Source: Pseudactinotalea suaedae (GTDB lineage Bacteria > Actinomycetota > Actinomycetes > Actinomycetales > Beutenbergiaceae). Taken from it: DNA of 64,000 nt. The stretch spans positions 310,001 through 374,000 of the forward strand of contig NZ_WNXY01000001.1 of assembly GCF_009733815.1 (NCBI RefSeq), written 5' to 3'. Under the pieces are notes generated by a model that had not been told where the DNA came from, searched no databases, and saw only the letters and a program-made list of their open reading frames with translations. The position numbers and the translations under genes are program-made. This document shows, piece after piece, positions 50,741-56,413 of the stretch. The first letter of the stretch is position 1. Each line of letters starts with the position of its first letter.

Positions 50741-50756
50741 TCGAACGCATGTTCGA
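50741..50756. promoter_or_regulatory. LexA (SOS) box spanning the dnaE2 start codon
   Basis: TCGAAC-GCAT-GTTCGA is a perfect palindrome matching the actinobacterial/mycobacterial SOS box. The ATG of dnaE2 (50749) is inside it. TTGATG at 50712-50717, an 18-base spacer and CATACT at 50736-50741 make a promoter whose start site would be near the ATG, so the transcript is probably leaderless and LexA would sit on the initiation point. Confidence 0.88.
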
Positions 50757-53700
50757 CGAGTCGAGGGGTGCGACGCACCCGGGGTACGCCGAGCTGCACG
50801 CCCACTCGGCGTTCAGCTTCCTCGACGGAGCGAGCCAGCCCGAGGAGCTGGTGGTGGAGGCCGTGGGGCGCGGGCTGTCCGGGCTGGCGCTGACGGACCA
50901 CGACGGGTTCTACGGCGTCGTGCGCTTCGCGGAGGCTGCGCGCGGCCTCGGGCTGCCCAGCATCTTCGGGTCCGAGCTCACCATGGGCCAGGAGCACCTG
51001 CTCGTGCTCGCCCGGGGTCCGGAGGGCTACCGGCGGCTCTCGCGCGCCATCGCGACCGCGCACCTCGCCACCGGTCGCAAGGGCGAGGCGGACTATCGCC
51101 TCGATGAGCTGGCCGAGCACGCCGAAGGTCACTGGACCGTGCTCACCGGCTGCCGGCAGGGTGCCGTGCGCCGCGCGCTGGAGCCGACTCCGGGCGCCTG
51201 GGACGTCCCCGCAGCGCGCGCCGAGCTGGAGCTGCTGATCGAGGCGTTCGGCAGGCAGAACGTGGTCGTCGAGGTCACCGACCGGGGGTTGCCGCTCGAT
51301 GCCGCCCGCAGCCAGGTGCTGGTCGATCTCGCGCACGCGGCCGGGGTCACGGCGGTCGCCACCGGGAACGTCCACTGCGCCGCGCCCCGGGACCAGCCGC
51401 TCGCCGACACCCTGGCCGCCGTGCACGCCCGCAGCAGCCTCGACCAGCTCGACGGGTGGCTGCCGCCCACCGCGAAGCACATCCGCTCGCCGCAGGAGAT
51501 GGCGCACGTGCACCGCCGCCACCCGCGGCTGCTCACCGCCAGCCTCGAGATCGCCGAGCAGTGCGCCTTCGACCTCGAGCTCGTCGCCCCCGAGCTGCCG
51601 CCGCACCCGGTGCCCGCCGGCCACACCGAGGCCACCTGGCTGCGGCACCTCACCGAGGTCGGCGCGGCCGAGCGCTACGGCCCTCGCCACGCCGAGCGCC
51701 AGCCCGGCGCCTACGCGATGATCGAGCACGAGCTCGGCATCATCGAACGGCTCGGCTTCCCCGGCTACTTCCTCATCGTCGGTGAGATCGTCGACTTCTG
51801 CCGCCGCAACGGCATCCTCTGCCAGGGCCGGGGCAGCGCGGCCAACTCGGCCGTCTGCTACGCGCTCGGCATCACCGCCGTCGACGCCGTGCAGCACAAG
51901 CTCCTCTTCGAACGCTTCCTCTCCGAGGGCCGCCGGGGCTACCCCGACATCGACGTCGACATCGAGTCCCGGCGCCGTGAGGAGGTCATCCAGTTCGTCT
52001 ACGAACGTTACGGACGCCGGCACGCCGCCCAGGTGGCGAACGTCATCTCCTACCGGCCCCGCTCCGCCGTCCGCGATGCCGCCAAGGCGTTCGGCTACGA
52101 CATCGGCCAGCAGGACGCCTGGTCGAAGGGCATCGAACGCTGGGGCTCGCTGCGCCCACACGAGCCCCGCCCCGACGGCGAGCAGCCGCCCTCGCCCGAA
52201 CGCCTCAGCGAGCAGGAGCGGCTGCGCCGTGACGGGCCCTGGACCCCCAGCGCGGAGGTCGATGCCGCCGCGACCGGCGACACCGACGACATCCCGGTCC
52301 ATGTCGTCGACATGGCCGAGCAGATGCTGCGGCTGCCACGCCACCTCGGCATCCACTCGGGCGGCATGGTGCTGTGCAAGGGCCCGGTGATCGACGTCTG
52401 CCCCGTCGAGTGGGCCACCATGCCGGGCCGCACCGTGCTGCAGTGGGACAAGGACGACTGCGCCGACGCCGGACTCGTCAAGTTCGACCTCCTCGGCCTC
52501 GGCATGCTGACCGCGCTGCGGCTGGCCTTCACCTGGGTGAAGGAGATCGAGGGGATCGAGGTGGACCTCCACTCGATCCCGCAGGAGGACCCGGCGGTCT
52601 ACGACCTGCTGTGCGCCGCCGACACGGTGGGCGTGTTCCAGGTGGAGTCCCGCGCCCAGATGGCCACGCTGCCGCGGCTGCGGCCACGCCGGTTCTACGA
52701 CATCGTCGTCGAGGTCGCGCTCATCCGCCCCGGCCCGATCCAGGGGCAGAGCGTGCACCCCTTCATCAACCGCAAGAACGGGCGTGAGCCCATCACCTAC
52801 CTGCACCCGCTGCTGGAGCCGGCGCTGGAGAAGACGCTCGGGGTGCCGCTGTTCCAGGAGCAGCTGATGCAGATCGCGATCGACGTCGCCGGCTTCTCAC
52901 CCGGTGAGGCCGACCAGCTGCGCCGGGCGATGGGCTCCAAGCGTTCGATGGAGCGCATGGAGGCGCTGCACCAGCGCCTGCTCGACGGCATGGCCGAGCG
53001 CGGCATCGGGCCCGACATCGGCGAGCAGATCTTCGACAAGCTGAAGGCGTTCGCCGACTTCGGCTTCCCGGAGTCGCACGCCTTCTCGTTCGCCTACCTC
53101 GTCTACGCCAGCTCATGGTTGAAGGTCCATCACCCCGAGGCCTTCTACGCCGGTCTGCTCGCCGCCCAGCCGATGGGGTTCTACTCACCGGCCTCGCTCG
53201 TCGCGGACGCCACCCGTCGAGGGGTCCGGGTCGAGCGGGCGGACGTCGCCCTCTCGCAGGTCCAGGCCTGCGTCCAGCGAGTTGATGAAGGCACAGGCGG
53301 CGGCTCCCTCGTGGTCCGGCTCGGGCTCGCACCGGTGCGGGGCATCGGTGAGAAGAGCGCCGAGCGGCTGGTCGCTGCTCGGGAGCGGGCACCGTTCGCG
53401 GATGTCGCCGACCTCTCGCGTCGGGTGGGTCTCTCGGCCGCGCAGCTGGAGTCGCTGGCCACCGCGGGTGCGCTGGCCAGCTTCGACCACACCCGCCGCG
53501 AGGCGCTGTGGCTCGCGGGCGCCCTGGCGGGGGAGAGTGGACGGCGTCATGGAGCCTTCGTGCAGGAGCCGCTGCCGTTCACCGCGGTGGGGCTGGAGGT
53601 CCCGGAGCTCCCGGTGATGGACCCGCTCACCCAGGCTGTCGCCGATGTGTGGGCCACCGGGCTGTCCACCGACTCCTTCCCCACCCAGTTCCGGCGCGCC

Positions 53701-54030
53701 GATCTCGACGCTGCCGGGGTGCTGACGATCGCGCAGGTACCGGGAGCAGGACCAGGCGCCCGGGTACGCGTCGCGGGTGTGGTCACCCATCGACAGCGAC
53801 CGGCGACCGCCCGCGGTGTCACGTTCCTGTCGCTGGAGGACGAGACCGGTCTGCTCAACGTCATCTGCTCGGCCGGGGTGTGGGGCCGCCACCGCAAGGC
53901 CGCGCGCGGCAGCGCCGCGCTCGTGATCCGGGGCACCGTCGAGCACGCGGACGGCGTCACGAACCTCATGGCCGAACGGATCGAGCCGCTCAGCCTCCGG
54001 GTGCCGAGCCGGTCCCGGGACTTCCAGTGA
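50749..54030 (+). CDS. dnaE2: Error-prone DNA polymerase DnaE2 (ImuC)
   Basis: At 1093 residues it has DnaE2 length. The N-terminal PHP domain starts at ELHAHSAFSFLDGA, the polymerase active-site aspartates are in YPDIDVDIE (residues 399-404) and VKFDLLGL (Asp580), and a helix-hairpin-helix (PVRGIGEKSAERLVAARE) and OB-fold (VRVAGVVTHRQRP) end the protein. DnaE2 carries out mutagenic lesion bypass in the SOS response, normally with ImuA' and ImuB. Neither partner is encoded in this window. The LexA box over its start shows it is damage-induced. Its 3' end overlaps a convergent gene by 41 bases. Confidence 0.95.
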   Translation: MFDESRGATHPGYAELHAHSAFSFLDGASQPEELVVEAVGRGLSGLALTDHDGFYGVVRFAEAARGLGLPSIFGSELTMGQEHLLVLARGPEGYRRLSRAIATAHLATGRKGEADYRLDELAEHAEGHWTVLTGCRQGAVRRALEPTPGAWDVPAARAELELLIEAFGRQNVVVEVTDRGLPLDAARSQVLVDLAHAAGVTAVATGNVHCAAPRDQPLADTLAAVHARSSLDQLDGWLPPTAKHIRSPQEMAHVHRRHPRLLTASLEIAEQCAFDLELVAPELPPHPVPAGHTEATWLRHLTEVGAAERYGPRHAERQPGAYAMIEHELGIIERLGFPGYFLIVGEIVDFCRRNGILCQGRGSAANSAVCYALGITAVDAVQHKLLFERFLSEGRRGYPDIDVDIESRRREEVIQFVYERYGRRHAAQVANVISYRPRSAVRDAAKAFGYDIGQQDAWSKGIERWGSLRPHEPRPDGEQPPSPERLSEQERLRRDGPWTPSAEVDAAATGDTDDIPVHVVDMAEQMLRLPRHLGIHSGGMVLCKGPVIDVCPVEWATMPGRTVLQWDKDDCADAGLVKFDLLGLGMLTALRLAFTWVKEIEGIEVDLHSIPQEDPAVYDLLCAADTVGVFQVESRAQMATLPRLRPRRFYDIVVEVALIRPGPIQGQSVHPFINRKNGREPITYLHPLLEPALEKTLGVPLFQEQLMQIAIDVAGFSPGEADQLRRAMGSKRSMERMEALHQRLLDGMAERGIGPDIGEQIFDKLKAFADFGFPESHAFSFAYLVYASSWLKVHHPEAFYAGLLAAQPMGFYSPASLVADATRRGVRVERADVALSQVQACVQRVDEGTGGGSLVVRLGLAPVRGIGEKSAERLVAARERAPFADVADLSRRVGLSAAQLESLATAGALASFDHTRREALWLAGALAGESGRRHGAFVQEPLPFTAVGLEVPELPVMDPLTQAVADVWATGLSTDSFPTQFRRADLDAAGVLTIAQVPGAGPGARVRVAGVVTHRQRPATARGVTFLSLEDETGLLNVICSAGVWGRHRKAARGSAALVIRGTVEHADGVTNLMAERIEPLSLRVPSRSRDFQ

Positions 54031-54504: not shown

Positions 54505-55596
54505 TCAGCGTGTCACAGCGGCGGCGAGGTGCTCGAGCACCTCGACCGTGGTGTCCCACCCCAGGCACGCGTCGGTGACGCTCTGCCCGTAGGTGAGCGC
54601 CGGGTGCCCGGGCCGCGGGTCGAGGCGCTGGGCACCGCCCACGAGGAAGCTCTCGAGCATCACACCCGCGAGCACGGGCGCACCGGCGGCGCGCTCGGCC
54701 GCCACCTGCTCGGCGATCTCGTGCGCCACCACCGCCTGTCGCCGGTGGTCCTTGCCGCTGTTGCCGTGGCTGGCGTCGACCATCACACGCGCGGGCATAC
54801 CGGCGGCGCGCAGCCGCTCCGCAGCGGCCTGCACGTGAGCGGCCGAGTAGTTCGGTCCGCTGCTCGAGCCGCGCAGGATGACGTGCGTGTCCGGGTTGCC
54901 GGACGTGCGCACGAGCGCCGCCCGCCCCTGCGGGTCGATCCCGAGGAACGACTGCGCGGACCCGGCCGCGGTGCACCCGTCGAGAGCTACGTCGAGGCTG
55001 CCGTCGGTGCCGTTCTTGAACCCGATCGGCATCGACAGCCCCGAGGCGAGCTGTCGATGGATCTGGCTCTCCGCCGTCCGGGCCCCGATCGCGCCCCAGC
55101 TGATCAGGTCCGCGAGGTACTGCGGGCTGATCGGCTCCAGGAACTCGGTCGCGGTGGGCAGCCCGAGGTCGACCACGTCACGCAGGAACTCACGTGCCCG
55201 GTGCAGGCCGGTGGCGATGTCGTGGCTGCCGTCCAGGTGCGGGTCGTTGACCAGCCCCTTCCAGCCGATGGTGGTCCGTGGCTTCTCGAAGTAGGTCCGC
55301 ATCACCACGAGCAGGCGGTCGTCGAGCCGCTGCGCCACGGTGGCCAGCCGGCGCGCGTACTCCAGACCCGCCTCGGTGTCGTGGATCGAGCACGGACCGA
55401 CGATCACCAGCAACCGGTCGTCGGTCCCGAGCAGGGCGGCGCGCACAGCCTCGCGAGAGCGAGCGACGCGGCGGAGCGCGGTGTCGTCGGCGGGCAGCTG
55501 GTCCAGCAGCTCGGCCGGGCTGGGCAGCGGCTCGATCTCGGCGACGTGCAGGTCCGAGGTGCGGGCGGCGGCTCGGGTCAGCGCAGACAGGGACAT
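54505..55596 (-). CDS. aroG: 3-deoxy-7-phosphoheptulonate (DAHP) synthase, class I
   Basis: A 363-residue class I-alpha DAHP synthase, which condenses phosphoenolpyruvate and erythrose 4-phosphate to open the shikimate pathway. Hallmarks are VIVGPCSIHD, MRTYFEKPRTTIGWKGL, the metal/substrate residues in GIDPQGRAALVRTSGN, and DASHGNSGK. The feedback-inhibited aroF/aroG/aroH type cannot be split further by eye. The start has GGAAGGA upstream. A 145-base leader with a 19-codon peptide containing Trp, Tyr and Phe codons and competing stem-loops lies before it, pointing to attenuation by aromatic amino acids. Confidence 0.95.
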   Translation of the reverse strand: MSLSALTRAAARTSDLHVAEIEPLPSPAELLDQLPADDTALRRVARSREAVRAALLGTDDRLLVIVGPCSIHDTEAGLEYARRLATVAQRLDDRLLVVMRTYFEKPRTTIGWKGLVNDPHLDGSHDIATGLHRAREFLRDVVDLGLPTATEFLEPISPQYLADLISWGAIGARTAESQIHRQLASGLSMPIGFKNGTDGSLDVALDGCTAAGSAQSFLGIDPQGRAALVRTSGNPDTHVILRGSSSGPNYSAAHVQAAAERLRAAGMPARVMVDASHGNSGKDHRRQAVVAHEIAEQVAAERAAGAPVLAGVMLESFLVGGAQRLDPRPGHPALTYGQSVTDACLGWDTTVEVLEHLAAAVTR

Positions 55597-55597
55597 G

Positions 55598-55721
55598 GGG
55601 TCCTTCCCGGCGGACCCAGCAGAGCCCGCCTGTGGCGGCGGCGGGCAGAAGAGGACGTCTCTGCCCGGTGGCTCTGGGGGTGTCGTGGCGTCAGTGCGCG
55701 GTCGGCCCCTCCAGAGCCACC
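55598..55721 (-). promoter_or_regulatory. Probable attenuator with mutually exclusive stems before aroG
   Basis: In the minus-strand RNA, segment 1 (GGTGGCTCTGG, 55721-55711) is inside the leader peptide just after its Trp-Arg-Tyr-Phe codons. It pairs perfectly over 11 bp with segment 2 (CCAGAGCCACC within 55680-55667). Segment 2 can instead pair with segment 3 (GGCTCTG, 55626-55620), closing a nested GGGCAGA/TCTGCCC hairpin (55666-55643). A last GGGTCC/GGACCC hairpin (55617-55598) would bury the aroG ribosome site and shares three bases with segment 3. Stalled ribosomes would cover segment 1 and favour 2:3, freeing the ribosome site. Confidence 0.7.
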
Positions 55722-55750
55722 ACGAAATAGCGCCAACGACGATCGGTCAC
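55691..55750 (-). CDS. Aromatic leader peptide for aroG
   Basis: GTG opens a 19-residue peptide VTDRRWRYFVVALEGPTAH ending in TGA at 55691. Trp, Tyr and Phe fall within four codons (W-R-Y-F), exactly the three end products that control DAHP synthase. The GTG lies six bases after a TAGCCT hexamer (55762-55757), so the peptide is probably translated from the very 5' end of the mRNA. Downstream stems overlap its second half. A peptide gene of this kind is too short for usual gene callers. Confidence 0.75.
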   Translation of the reverse strand: MTDRRWRYFVVALEGPTAH

Positions 55751-55759
55751 GCTGTGAGG

Positions 55760-56413
55760 CTACCGCGTGGCGGCGTACACCCAGTACTCCTCGTCACGAT
55801 GTGAGAGCTGTACCGGTACCCGGACAATCCGGACCTGCCCGATCGTGGTGCGCAGCTCCCGCTCGAGGGTGTGCGCCGGATGGGCGCTCCACACCACCAG
55901 CATCCCTCCCGGCGCGAGCGCACGGCGGGCGAGTGCGAGCCCACCACGGTCGTACAGCGCGCGGTTGGACAGGTGCACGAGCTGGTCGGGTCCGTTGTCG
56001 ACGTCGAGAAGCACGACGTCGTAGCTCGCCCGTGCGGCCGCGCCCAGATGGGCGAGGACGTCGGTCACGTGAACGCTCAGGCGTGCGTCCGCGAGCAGGT
56101 CCGGTCCGTGCGGGACCGTGCCGTCCGCCAACCAGTCGACGACGGCCTGCTCGATCTCGACCACGTCGACGTGCTCGACGCGCGGGTCCGCCAGCAGCTC
56201 GGCGGTGGTGTACCCCAGCCCCAGACCACCGACGAGGACACGGAACGGCCTGGCTGAGCGCTCCAGGGCCACGCGTGCGAGCGCTCGTTCGCTCGTCGTC
56301 TGCTCGGTGTCCATGACGAAGACGCCGTTGACACGCAGCTCGAGCACGCCGTCCGCGCGGGTGGACAGGACGAGCTCACCGCGGGCAGAGACCGCCCGTG
56401 CCACGGTGCTCAT
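55760..56413 (-). CDS. Spermidine synthase-like methyltransferase-fold protein
   Basis: A 217-residue Rossmann-fold protein. VLVGGLGLGYTTAELL is the nucleotide-binding loop, VDVVEIEQAVVDWL the acidic strand, and YDVVLLDVDNGPDQLV the catalytic-site strand of the spermidine-synthase/SAM-methyltransferase superfamily. The N-terminal domain is short compared with true spermidine synthases, and the aspartates for polyamine binding are not convincing, so aminopropyl transfer is uncertain. The stop codon overlaps the -10 element of the aroG leader. It lies five bases after the AI-2E-type transporter gene on the same strand. Confidence 0.75.
   Translation of the reverse strand: MSTVARAVSARGELVLSTRADGVLELRVNGVFVMDTEQTTSERALARVALERSARPFRVLVGGLGLGYTTAELLADPRVEHVDVVEIEQAVVDWLADGTVPHGPDLLADARLSVHVTDVLAHLGAAARASYDVVLLDVDNGPDQLVHLSNRALYDRGGLALARRALAPGGMLVVWSAHPAHTLERELRTTIGQVRIVRVPVQLSHRDEEYWVYAATR

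Follow-up and report, generated by a model that had tools for sequence, protein, structure and literature searches.

A putative leaderless aromatic-codon attenuator upstream of class-I DAHP synthase in Pseudactinotalea suaedae and related actinobacteria

Described attenuators and the leader in the window

In Escherichia coli, entry into the aromatic pathway is controlled by repressors together with three isoenzymes. The closest known system to the element described here is aroR–aroF of Corynebacterium glutamicum, in which the aroF leader peptide carries a Phe-Tyr-Phe run and is described as acting by ribosome-mediated transcriptional attenuation (Neshat et al., 2014; PMC11802643, PMC4046766); starvation is reported to raise expression there, and by the account in PMC11802643 it is limitation of Phe, not of Tyr, that acts. 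The trpL-type attenuators (E. coli trp and the trp leaders of Corynebacterium and Streptomyces) combine control codons, mutually exclusive stems and a biosynthetic target gene. The LEU element of actinobacterial leuA involves a pseudoknot and the pairing of its control codons with the Shine–Dalgarno box (Seliverstov et al., 2005; PMC1262725); that 2005 survey of actinobacterial RNA elements reported none for Phe/Tyr operons. The uORFC-13-1 motif of Acholeplasma aroF places an upstream ORF with a Phe codon before a DAHP synthase gene (PMC8632094), and the leaderless leader peptides listed for Streptomyces lividans (PMC8079986), like that of C. glutamicum ilvB, begin right at the RNA 5′ end, in some cases with no obvious terminator.

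We analysed a 64-kb stretch of Pseudactinotalea suaedae DNA (hereafter, the window). On its minus strand a spermidine-synthase-like gene (56413–55760) is followed by a 19-codon ORF (55750–55691; VTDRRWRYFVVALEGPTAH) and then by a class-I DAHP synthase gene (55596–54505; start codon ATG, 55596–55594), whose product also scores above the NCBIfam cut-off as aroFGH. The leader ORF opens GTG ACC GAT CGT CGT TGG CGC TAT TTC, with the TGG CGC TAT TTC run at 55735–55724, and closes after 19 codons with TGA (55693–55691); its GTG lies 6 nt 3′ of the hexamer TAGCCT and 154 nt 5′ of the DAHP synthase gene. A sequence-only reading of this DNA had proposed just such a frame, beginning six bases after TAGCCT and carrying consecutive Trp-Arg-Tyr-Phe codons, and every coordinate of it checks on the minus strand. 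The ORF is the only one on either strand of the 64 kb that combines 12–30 codons, at least three aromatic residues within five codons and a TANNNT motif 6–8 nt upstream. The spermidine-synthase-like gene (55760–56413, minus strand) has its TAG stop codon within this hexamer, which places the putative leader promoter inside that gene. Elsewhere in the window, a 1093-aa ORF on the plus strand (50749–54030) resembles, by eye, an error-prone DNA polymerase III alpha subunit (DnaE2-like). The features of the locus are as follows.

55757..55762, minus strand: −10-like hexamer TAGCCT, putative leader promoter (from the sequence, and TANNNT at 6–8 nt in 134/134 relatives)
55691..55750, minus strand: putative leaderless leader ORF with GTG start, VTDRRWRYFVVALEGPTAH (homologous ORFs at 134 loci)
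55735–55733, 55729–55727 and 55726–55724, minus strand: putative control codons TGG, TAT and TTC, within the leader ORF
55711..55721, minus strand: segment 1 (GGTGGCTCTGG), pairing with segment 2 (covariation; partner swaps, 21/21 clades)
55667..55677, minus strand: segment 2 (CCAGAGCCACC), pairing with segment 1 or, through its core at 55676–55670, with segment 3
55642..55667, minus strand: hairpin P2 (CGGGCAGAG / TTCTGCCCG), arms 55667–55659 and 55650–55642 (two-sided changes; partner swaps, 21/21 clades)
55620..55626, minus strand: segment 3 (GGCTCTG), pairing with segment 2 (partner swaps, 17/21 clades)
55609..55630, minus strand: stem 3:4, GGCGGG (55630–55625) with TCCGCC (55614–55609), predicted anti-sequestor (partner swaps, 19/20 clades)
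55598..55617, minus strand: stem 4:ribosome site, GGGTCC (55617–55612) with GGACCC (55603–55598), putative sequestor of the DAHP synthase Shine–Dalgarno region (partner swaps, 17/21 clades)
54505..55596, minus strand: class-I DAHP synthase (aroF/G type), the gene thought to be regulated (Pfam PF00793, E 1.3e-82; NCBIfam TIGR00034 and PRK12755 above cut-off)

Segments 1 and 2 form 11 perfect base pairs, a stem matched by only 2 of 2000 dinucleotide shuffles, and the 7-nt core of segment 2 (CAGAGCC) can pair instead with segment 3 (GGCTCTG). The 11-bp stem, the alternative pairing of segment 2 with segment 3 and the GGGTCC/GGACCC hairpin over the DAHP synthase ribosome site had all been put forward from the sequence, and all three hold up at their positions, with the comparative support given below. 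Stems 2:3 and 4:ribosome site were matched in 140 and 201 of 2000 shuffles, respectively, and so, being unremarkable in the window sequence by itself, they rest on comparative evidence. Hairpin P2 and stem 3:4, the latter competing with both 2:3 and the ribosome-site stem, are additions of the present analysis. P2 is a spacer or pause hairpin in the window and terminator-like in some relatives.

The element thus has a short ORF with codons for the products of the pathway in front of a biosynthetic gene, and is of the same kind as aroR–aroF, from which it is set apart by its Trp codons, its lack of a terminator and its ribosome-site cascade. Both have an aromatic-codon leader peptide before a DAHP synthase gene; compared through a leader of the aroR type from Corynebacterium ulceribovis, with peptide MSVQRFYFGGAPVG (Phe-Tyr-Phe) and stem 1:2 formed by GGGCTCCGGTTG/CAACCGGAGCCC, they also share a P2 of the same design. 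The window leader has Trp, Tyr and Phe codons, whereas that of aroR, as presented in the accounts cited, has Phe and Tyr codons only, and it lacks a T-rich stretch after P2 and has a stem closing the ribosome site, whereas aroR is described there as transcriptional. With the trpL type it shares control codons, mutually exclusive stems and a biosynthetic target. It departs from that type in the gene concerned, DAHP synthase, in one extra alternative stem, in the want of a T-run terminator as the OFF structure in the window (some relatives are T-rich after P2), in a segment 1 that mostly begins 3 nt past the last aromatic codon instead of overlapping the control codons, and in a stem 1:2 that seems to form in the ON state. 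The LEU element differs in amino acid and gene. The uORFC-13-1 motif has a ribosome-binding site, precedes an intrinsic terminator and belongs to another phylum (PMC8632094), while the S. lividans list concerns other amino acids and includes no leader for DAHP synthase (PMC8079986).

Conservation of the leader and its stems

DAHP synthase homologues were drawn from named genomes and from others at genus, family, order and class level. Equivalent leaders precede DAHP synthase at 134 actinobacterial loci, among them those of all three species of the window's genus, where the design is the same. By family handle, the leader is present at 17/17 loci in f1, 13/13 in f6, 7/7 in f12, 2/2 in f19, 15/17 in f9 (both misses being additional copies within a single genome), 20/20 in f22, 19/20 in f38, 3/3 in f45, 2/2 in f53 and 1/1 in f58; it is missing from the DAHP synthase loci of f4 (0/4, a bifidobacterium-like group), f35 (0/18) and f37 (0/1). 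Examples are MTNRWYAYFSLALEGPASN in Arthrobacter, MTRWYAYFESALEGPAPE in Microbacterium, VKIGVRAYWRFIVAPGGTRDTASG in Mycobacterium, VKRCYWRFFEWPALVPGDSADR in Kribbella and MSVQRFYFGGAPVGADDAAASSSR in Corynebacterium ulceribovis. A covariance-model scan (E<=1e-5) of 246 genomes of the phylum gave zero matches outside the class, and within the genomes sampled the element is restricted to one actinobacterial class. Weak matches to the model in other genomes, and a second one in the window's own genome (C2:89158; E 9e-5), fall in unrelated places and are apparently due to chance. At gathering score, no Rfam 15 family matches the window or eight relatives; the sub-threshold Rfam matches were discarded as miRNA-like chance matches.

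A TANNNT motif lies 6, 7 or 8 nt 5′ of the start in 134/134 leaders (49, 81 and 4, respectively), compared with 6 of 1197 other ATG or GTG codons within 200 nt (0.5%). Because the −10 motif was one criterion for choosing among nested starts, the figure of 134/134 is partly circular, but with a control rate of 0.5% circularity cannot account for it. Shine–Dalgarno-like 4-mers precede the DAHP synthase start in 115/133 cases and the leader start in 3/134; among control starts the rate is 23%. The leader ORFs span 17–24 codons. Of 133 leaders, 111 have codons for all three of Trp, Tyr and Phe, 17 for Tyr and Phe and 5 for Trp and Tyr, so that each has at least two of the three kinds. Aromatics make up 35% of residues 3–12 and 0.9% of those past residue 12, and both this aromatic cluster and the complementarity are kept even though the C-terminal half of the peptide is variable. 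A leaderless start, conserved aromatic codons and covarying stems were each called for by the sequence-only reading: the first is supported by the hexamer and the scarcity of Shine–Dalgarno-like motifs, the second by the 111 leaders with all three codons, and the third, most strongly for stems 1:2 and P2, by the following tests.

RNAalifold applied to an alignment of 40 diverse leaders (A1) recovered stems 1:2 and P2, with two-sided changes in 11/17 pairs. Across both stems 95.4% of cells were paired, and there were 98 two-sided cells against a shuffled mean of 29 (0/500 shuffles reached 98); sliding the partner by 1–3 columns lowered the pairing to 33–57%. For P2 alone, 98.1% of cells were paired in the 40 sequences and 7/8 pairs had two-sided changes. 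Nearer the gene, sequences differ too much between clades to align, and those stems were therefore examined by exchanging partners between clades within windows fixed by position; long gapped duplex searches proved too permissive, and ungapped helices were used. The clade's own partner was the better one in 21/21 clades for stem 1:2, in 17/21 (p 0.004) for 2:3 and in 17/21 (p 0.004) for 4:ribosome site. P2 also gave 21/21, a value biased by its having been chosen beforehand as the best hairpin, so that the alignment count is the better evidence. Stem 3:4 gave 19/20, segment 3 having been picked for that test by its pairing with segment 2, not 4, and the swap window having been shortened for the window's genus. 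Control pairings had no such support: 1:3 (11/21), 3:ribosome site (11/21), 1:ribosome site (11/21), 2:ribosome site (6/21) and ORF start:ribosome site (8/21), and a codon:Shine–Dalgarno pairing of the LEU type is accordingly not seen in the values for the ORF start and segment 1. Segment 3:ribosome site was also considered as a general sequestor and rejected (9/20 and 11/21), although such pairing may occur in Arthrobacter-type leaders. In both congeners GGGTCC/GGACCC has become CGGTCC/GGACCG, changed on both sides together; a mycobacterial leader has a striking GGCACCTG/CAGGTGCC pairing over the ribosome site, and the family member L090 a near-complete helix there. A further short hairpin just after P2 in relatives (UUCGYC ... 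GRCGGG) seems to covary between clades in its CGYC/GRCG stem (C-G to U-A; swaps 15/20, p 0.02).

The comparison shows the predicted leaderless aromatic ORF and stems 1:2 and P2 kept together before DAHP synthase across much of one class. Less strongly, it points to a chain of exclusive stems, 2:3, 3:4 and 4:ribosome site, kept with the leader, and covariation and swaps together indicate mutually exclusive stems that link the ORF to an expression platform. The leader probably lets ribosomes sense aromatic starvation and raise DAHP synthase.

Proposed switch and its polarity

We favour, at a probability of roughly two in three, a ribosome-mediated attenuator that controls translation of the class-I DAHP synthase with inverted polarity. 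Of its parts, the attenuator is strongly supported and the translational platform supported, and we infer the polarity. Transcription would start at the GTG and a ribosome would load on the 5′ end of the RNA. With charged aromatic tRNAs plentiful, it would reach the stop codon and sit between segments 1 and 2, so that 2:3 forms and segment 4 is left free to close the Shine–Dalgarno region (OFF). Were an aromatic tRNA scarce, the ribosome would halt at the Trp, Tyr or Phe codons, no further on than the 5′ edge of segment 1, and stems 1:2 and 3:4 would form with the ribosome site open (ON). Stem 1:2 would then go with expression, opposite to its part in the E. coli trp leader. A rise in expression on starvation is also the direction reported for aroR (PMC11802643).

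The proposed polarity follows from which stems are compatible: as 3:4 excludes 4:ribosome site and 2:3 excludes 3:4, the sets are 1:2 with 3:4 (open) and 2:3 with 4:ribosome site (closed), and stalling should therefore favour 1:2. The spacing is consistent with this. Segment 1 most commonly begins three nucleotides past the last aromatic codon (68/117 leaders). Stem 1:2 has a median of 15/15 bp uncovered when the ribosome stands at the first aromatic codon, and segments 1 and 2 lie 28 nt apart (IQR 26–30), about one ribosome footprint, with the stop codon in between. In 19/21 clades (92 versus 21 sequences), leaders folded up to the start codon had a ribosome site that opened more easily when the ribosome was placed at the first aromatic codon and not at the stop codon. 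This signal shrank as coding sequence was added, to 17/21 clades with 9 nt past the start codon and to 13/21 with 24 nt. A whole-ensemble fold that took in 25 nt of coding sequence, with the site drawn slightly wider, did not separate the polarities (57 versus 50 sequences) and was set aside. The fold-based signal is moderate; the window's genus is mixed (L081, 5.5 versus 7.6; L082, 3.4 versus 8.7; L083, 7.1 versus 6.3 kcal/mol). Modelling thus lends the inverted polarity support at the level of the family and is ambiguous for the window itself.

Transcriptional attenuation, with P2 terminating or Rho acting on the untranslated leader RNA and the ribosome-site stem secondary, is an unlikely alternative, although one that deserves a hearing. 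C. glutamicum aroR is described in PMC11802643 as acting on transcription, and T-rich stretches follow P2 in mycobacterial leaders and in the group with a DAHP synthase-like/chorismate mutase gene considered below. In the window, however, P2 is followed by GCCGCCGCC, with no T-run after it or after any later stem, no anti-terminator partner for the P2 5′ strand was found in the ORF start or in segments 1 and 2 (swaps 8/20 each), and P2 as such is absent from several loci that keep 2:3 (PSE group). The earlier view that control is translational, not transcriptional, is plausible for the window's genus, where nothing T-rich follows P2; in the lineages that are T-rich there, the stretch points to transcription termination.

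We regard as rather improbable a classical trpL-like polarity, apparently assumed by the sequence-only reading, in which the stalled ribosome covers segment 1 and 2:3 forms (ON), whereas without a stall 1:2 forms and the site is closed. With the last aromatic codon in the A site, about half of stem 1:2 would be covered (median 8/15 bp left), and in the fold of the window sequence a stall at Phe, unlike one at Trp or Tyr, gives 2:3. Segment 3 of Arthrobacter-type leaders, moreover, is able to bind the ribosome site directly, which would mean classical polarity there. Yet a stall at the conserved Trp, the first aromatic, leaves segment 1 uncovered, the swaps favour 3:4 and 4:ribosome site but not 3:ribosome site (9/20, 11/21), and the fold comparisons have the opposite sign in 19/21 clades.

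It is quite unlikely that the leader is mostly read within a longer transcript from the spermidine-synthase-like gene, and so is not leaderless in practice: that gene does end at 55760, with its stop codon within TAGCCT, but the hexamer at its 6–8-nt spacing recurs at 134/134 loci and Shine–Dalgarno-like motifs are rarer before the leader start than at control starts. Slighter still is the chance that the leader is kept for another reason, as a protein- or metabolite-binding RNA or for a functional micropeptide with incidental aromatics, since the good conservation of P2 and the nucleotides after it is set against a peptide whose C-terminal half varies around a constant aromatic cluster and complementarity, the want of any Rfam family, and leaders without Trp codons before a chorismate mutase fusion (Tyr/Phe branch).

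Here a single RNA element, placed at the 5′ end of a single mRNA, could respond to the combined supply of the three aromatic products, although the reported response of the C. glutamicum relative to Phe and not Tyr counts against assuming that the three are sensed equally. If the polarity is right, attenuation can be wired with an unmasked segment 1 as the ON state, and a start-codon mutant of the leader would be constitutive. The family, unrecorded by automatic annotation (ORFs of <30 codons) and by Rfam, would offer a comparative model for leaderless translation as a sensor and an engineering target for aromatic production in actinobacteria.

A second target gene and additional copies

With the covariance model R1 the element is also detected in ten f35 genomes, 5′ of a different gene (L243–L252; match ~200 nt from the leader end). 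At the eight loci read, the downstream ORF joins a weak, degenerate class-I-beta-like DAHP synthase domain to a type II chorismate mutase (Pfam PF00793 and PF01817 in the three scanned). The leaders there, for example MNRSFAFIEPAPGSRS and MGRYSSFTRPAPGGPVA, have Phe and Tyr codons and no Trp, as expected of a gene of the Phe/Tyr branch. A T5–T6 run follows P2 at these loci, where transcription termination may be used. We would put even odds on the wider picture of a class-wide attenuator outside Rfam, with one leaderless ORF reading three aromatics through an inverted four-stem cascade, fitted to two pathway genes with matching codons.

Class-I DAHP synthase genes of family f35 (e.g. L170, L174, L176) have a leader in 0/18 cases, which suggests that the element was lost or moved there. 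In one order-level genome (G285) with three class-I DAHP synthase genes (L125, L135, L136), the leader stands before the first only.
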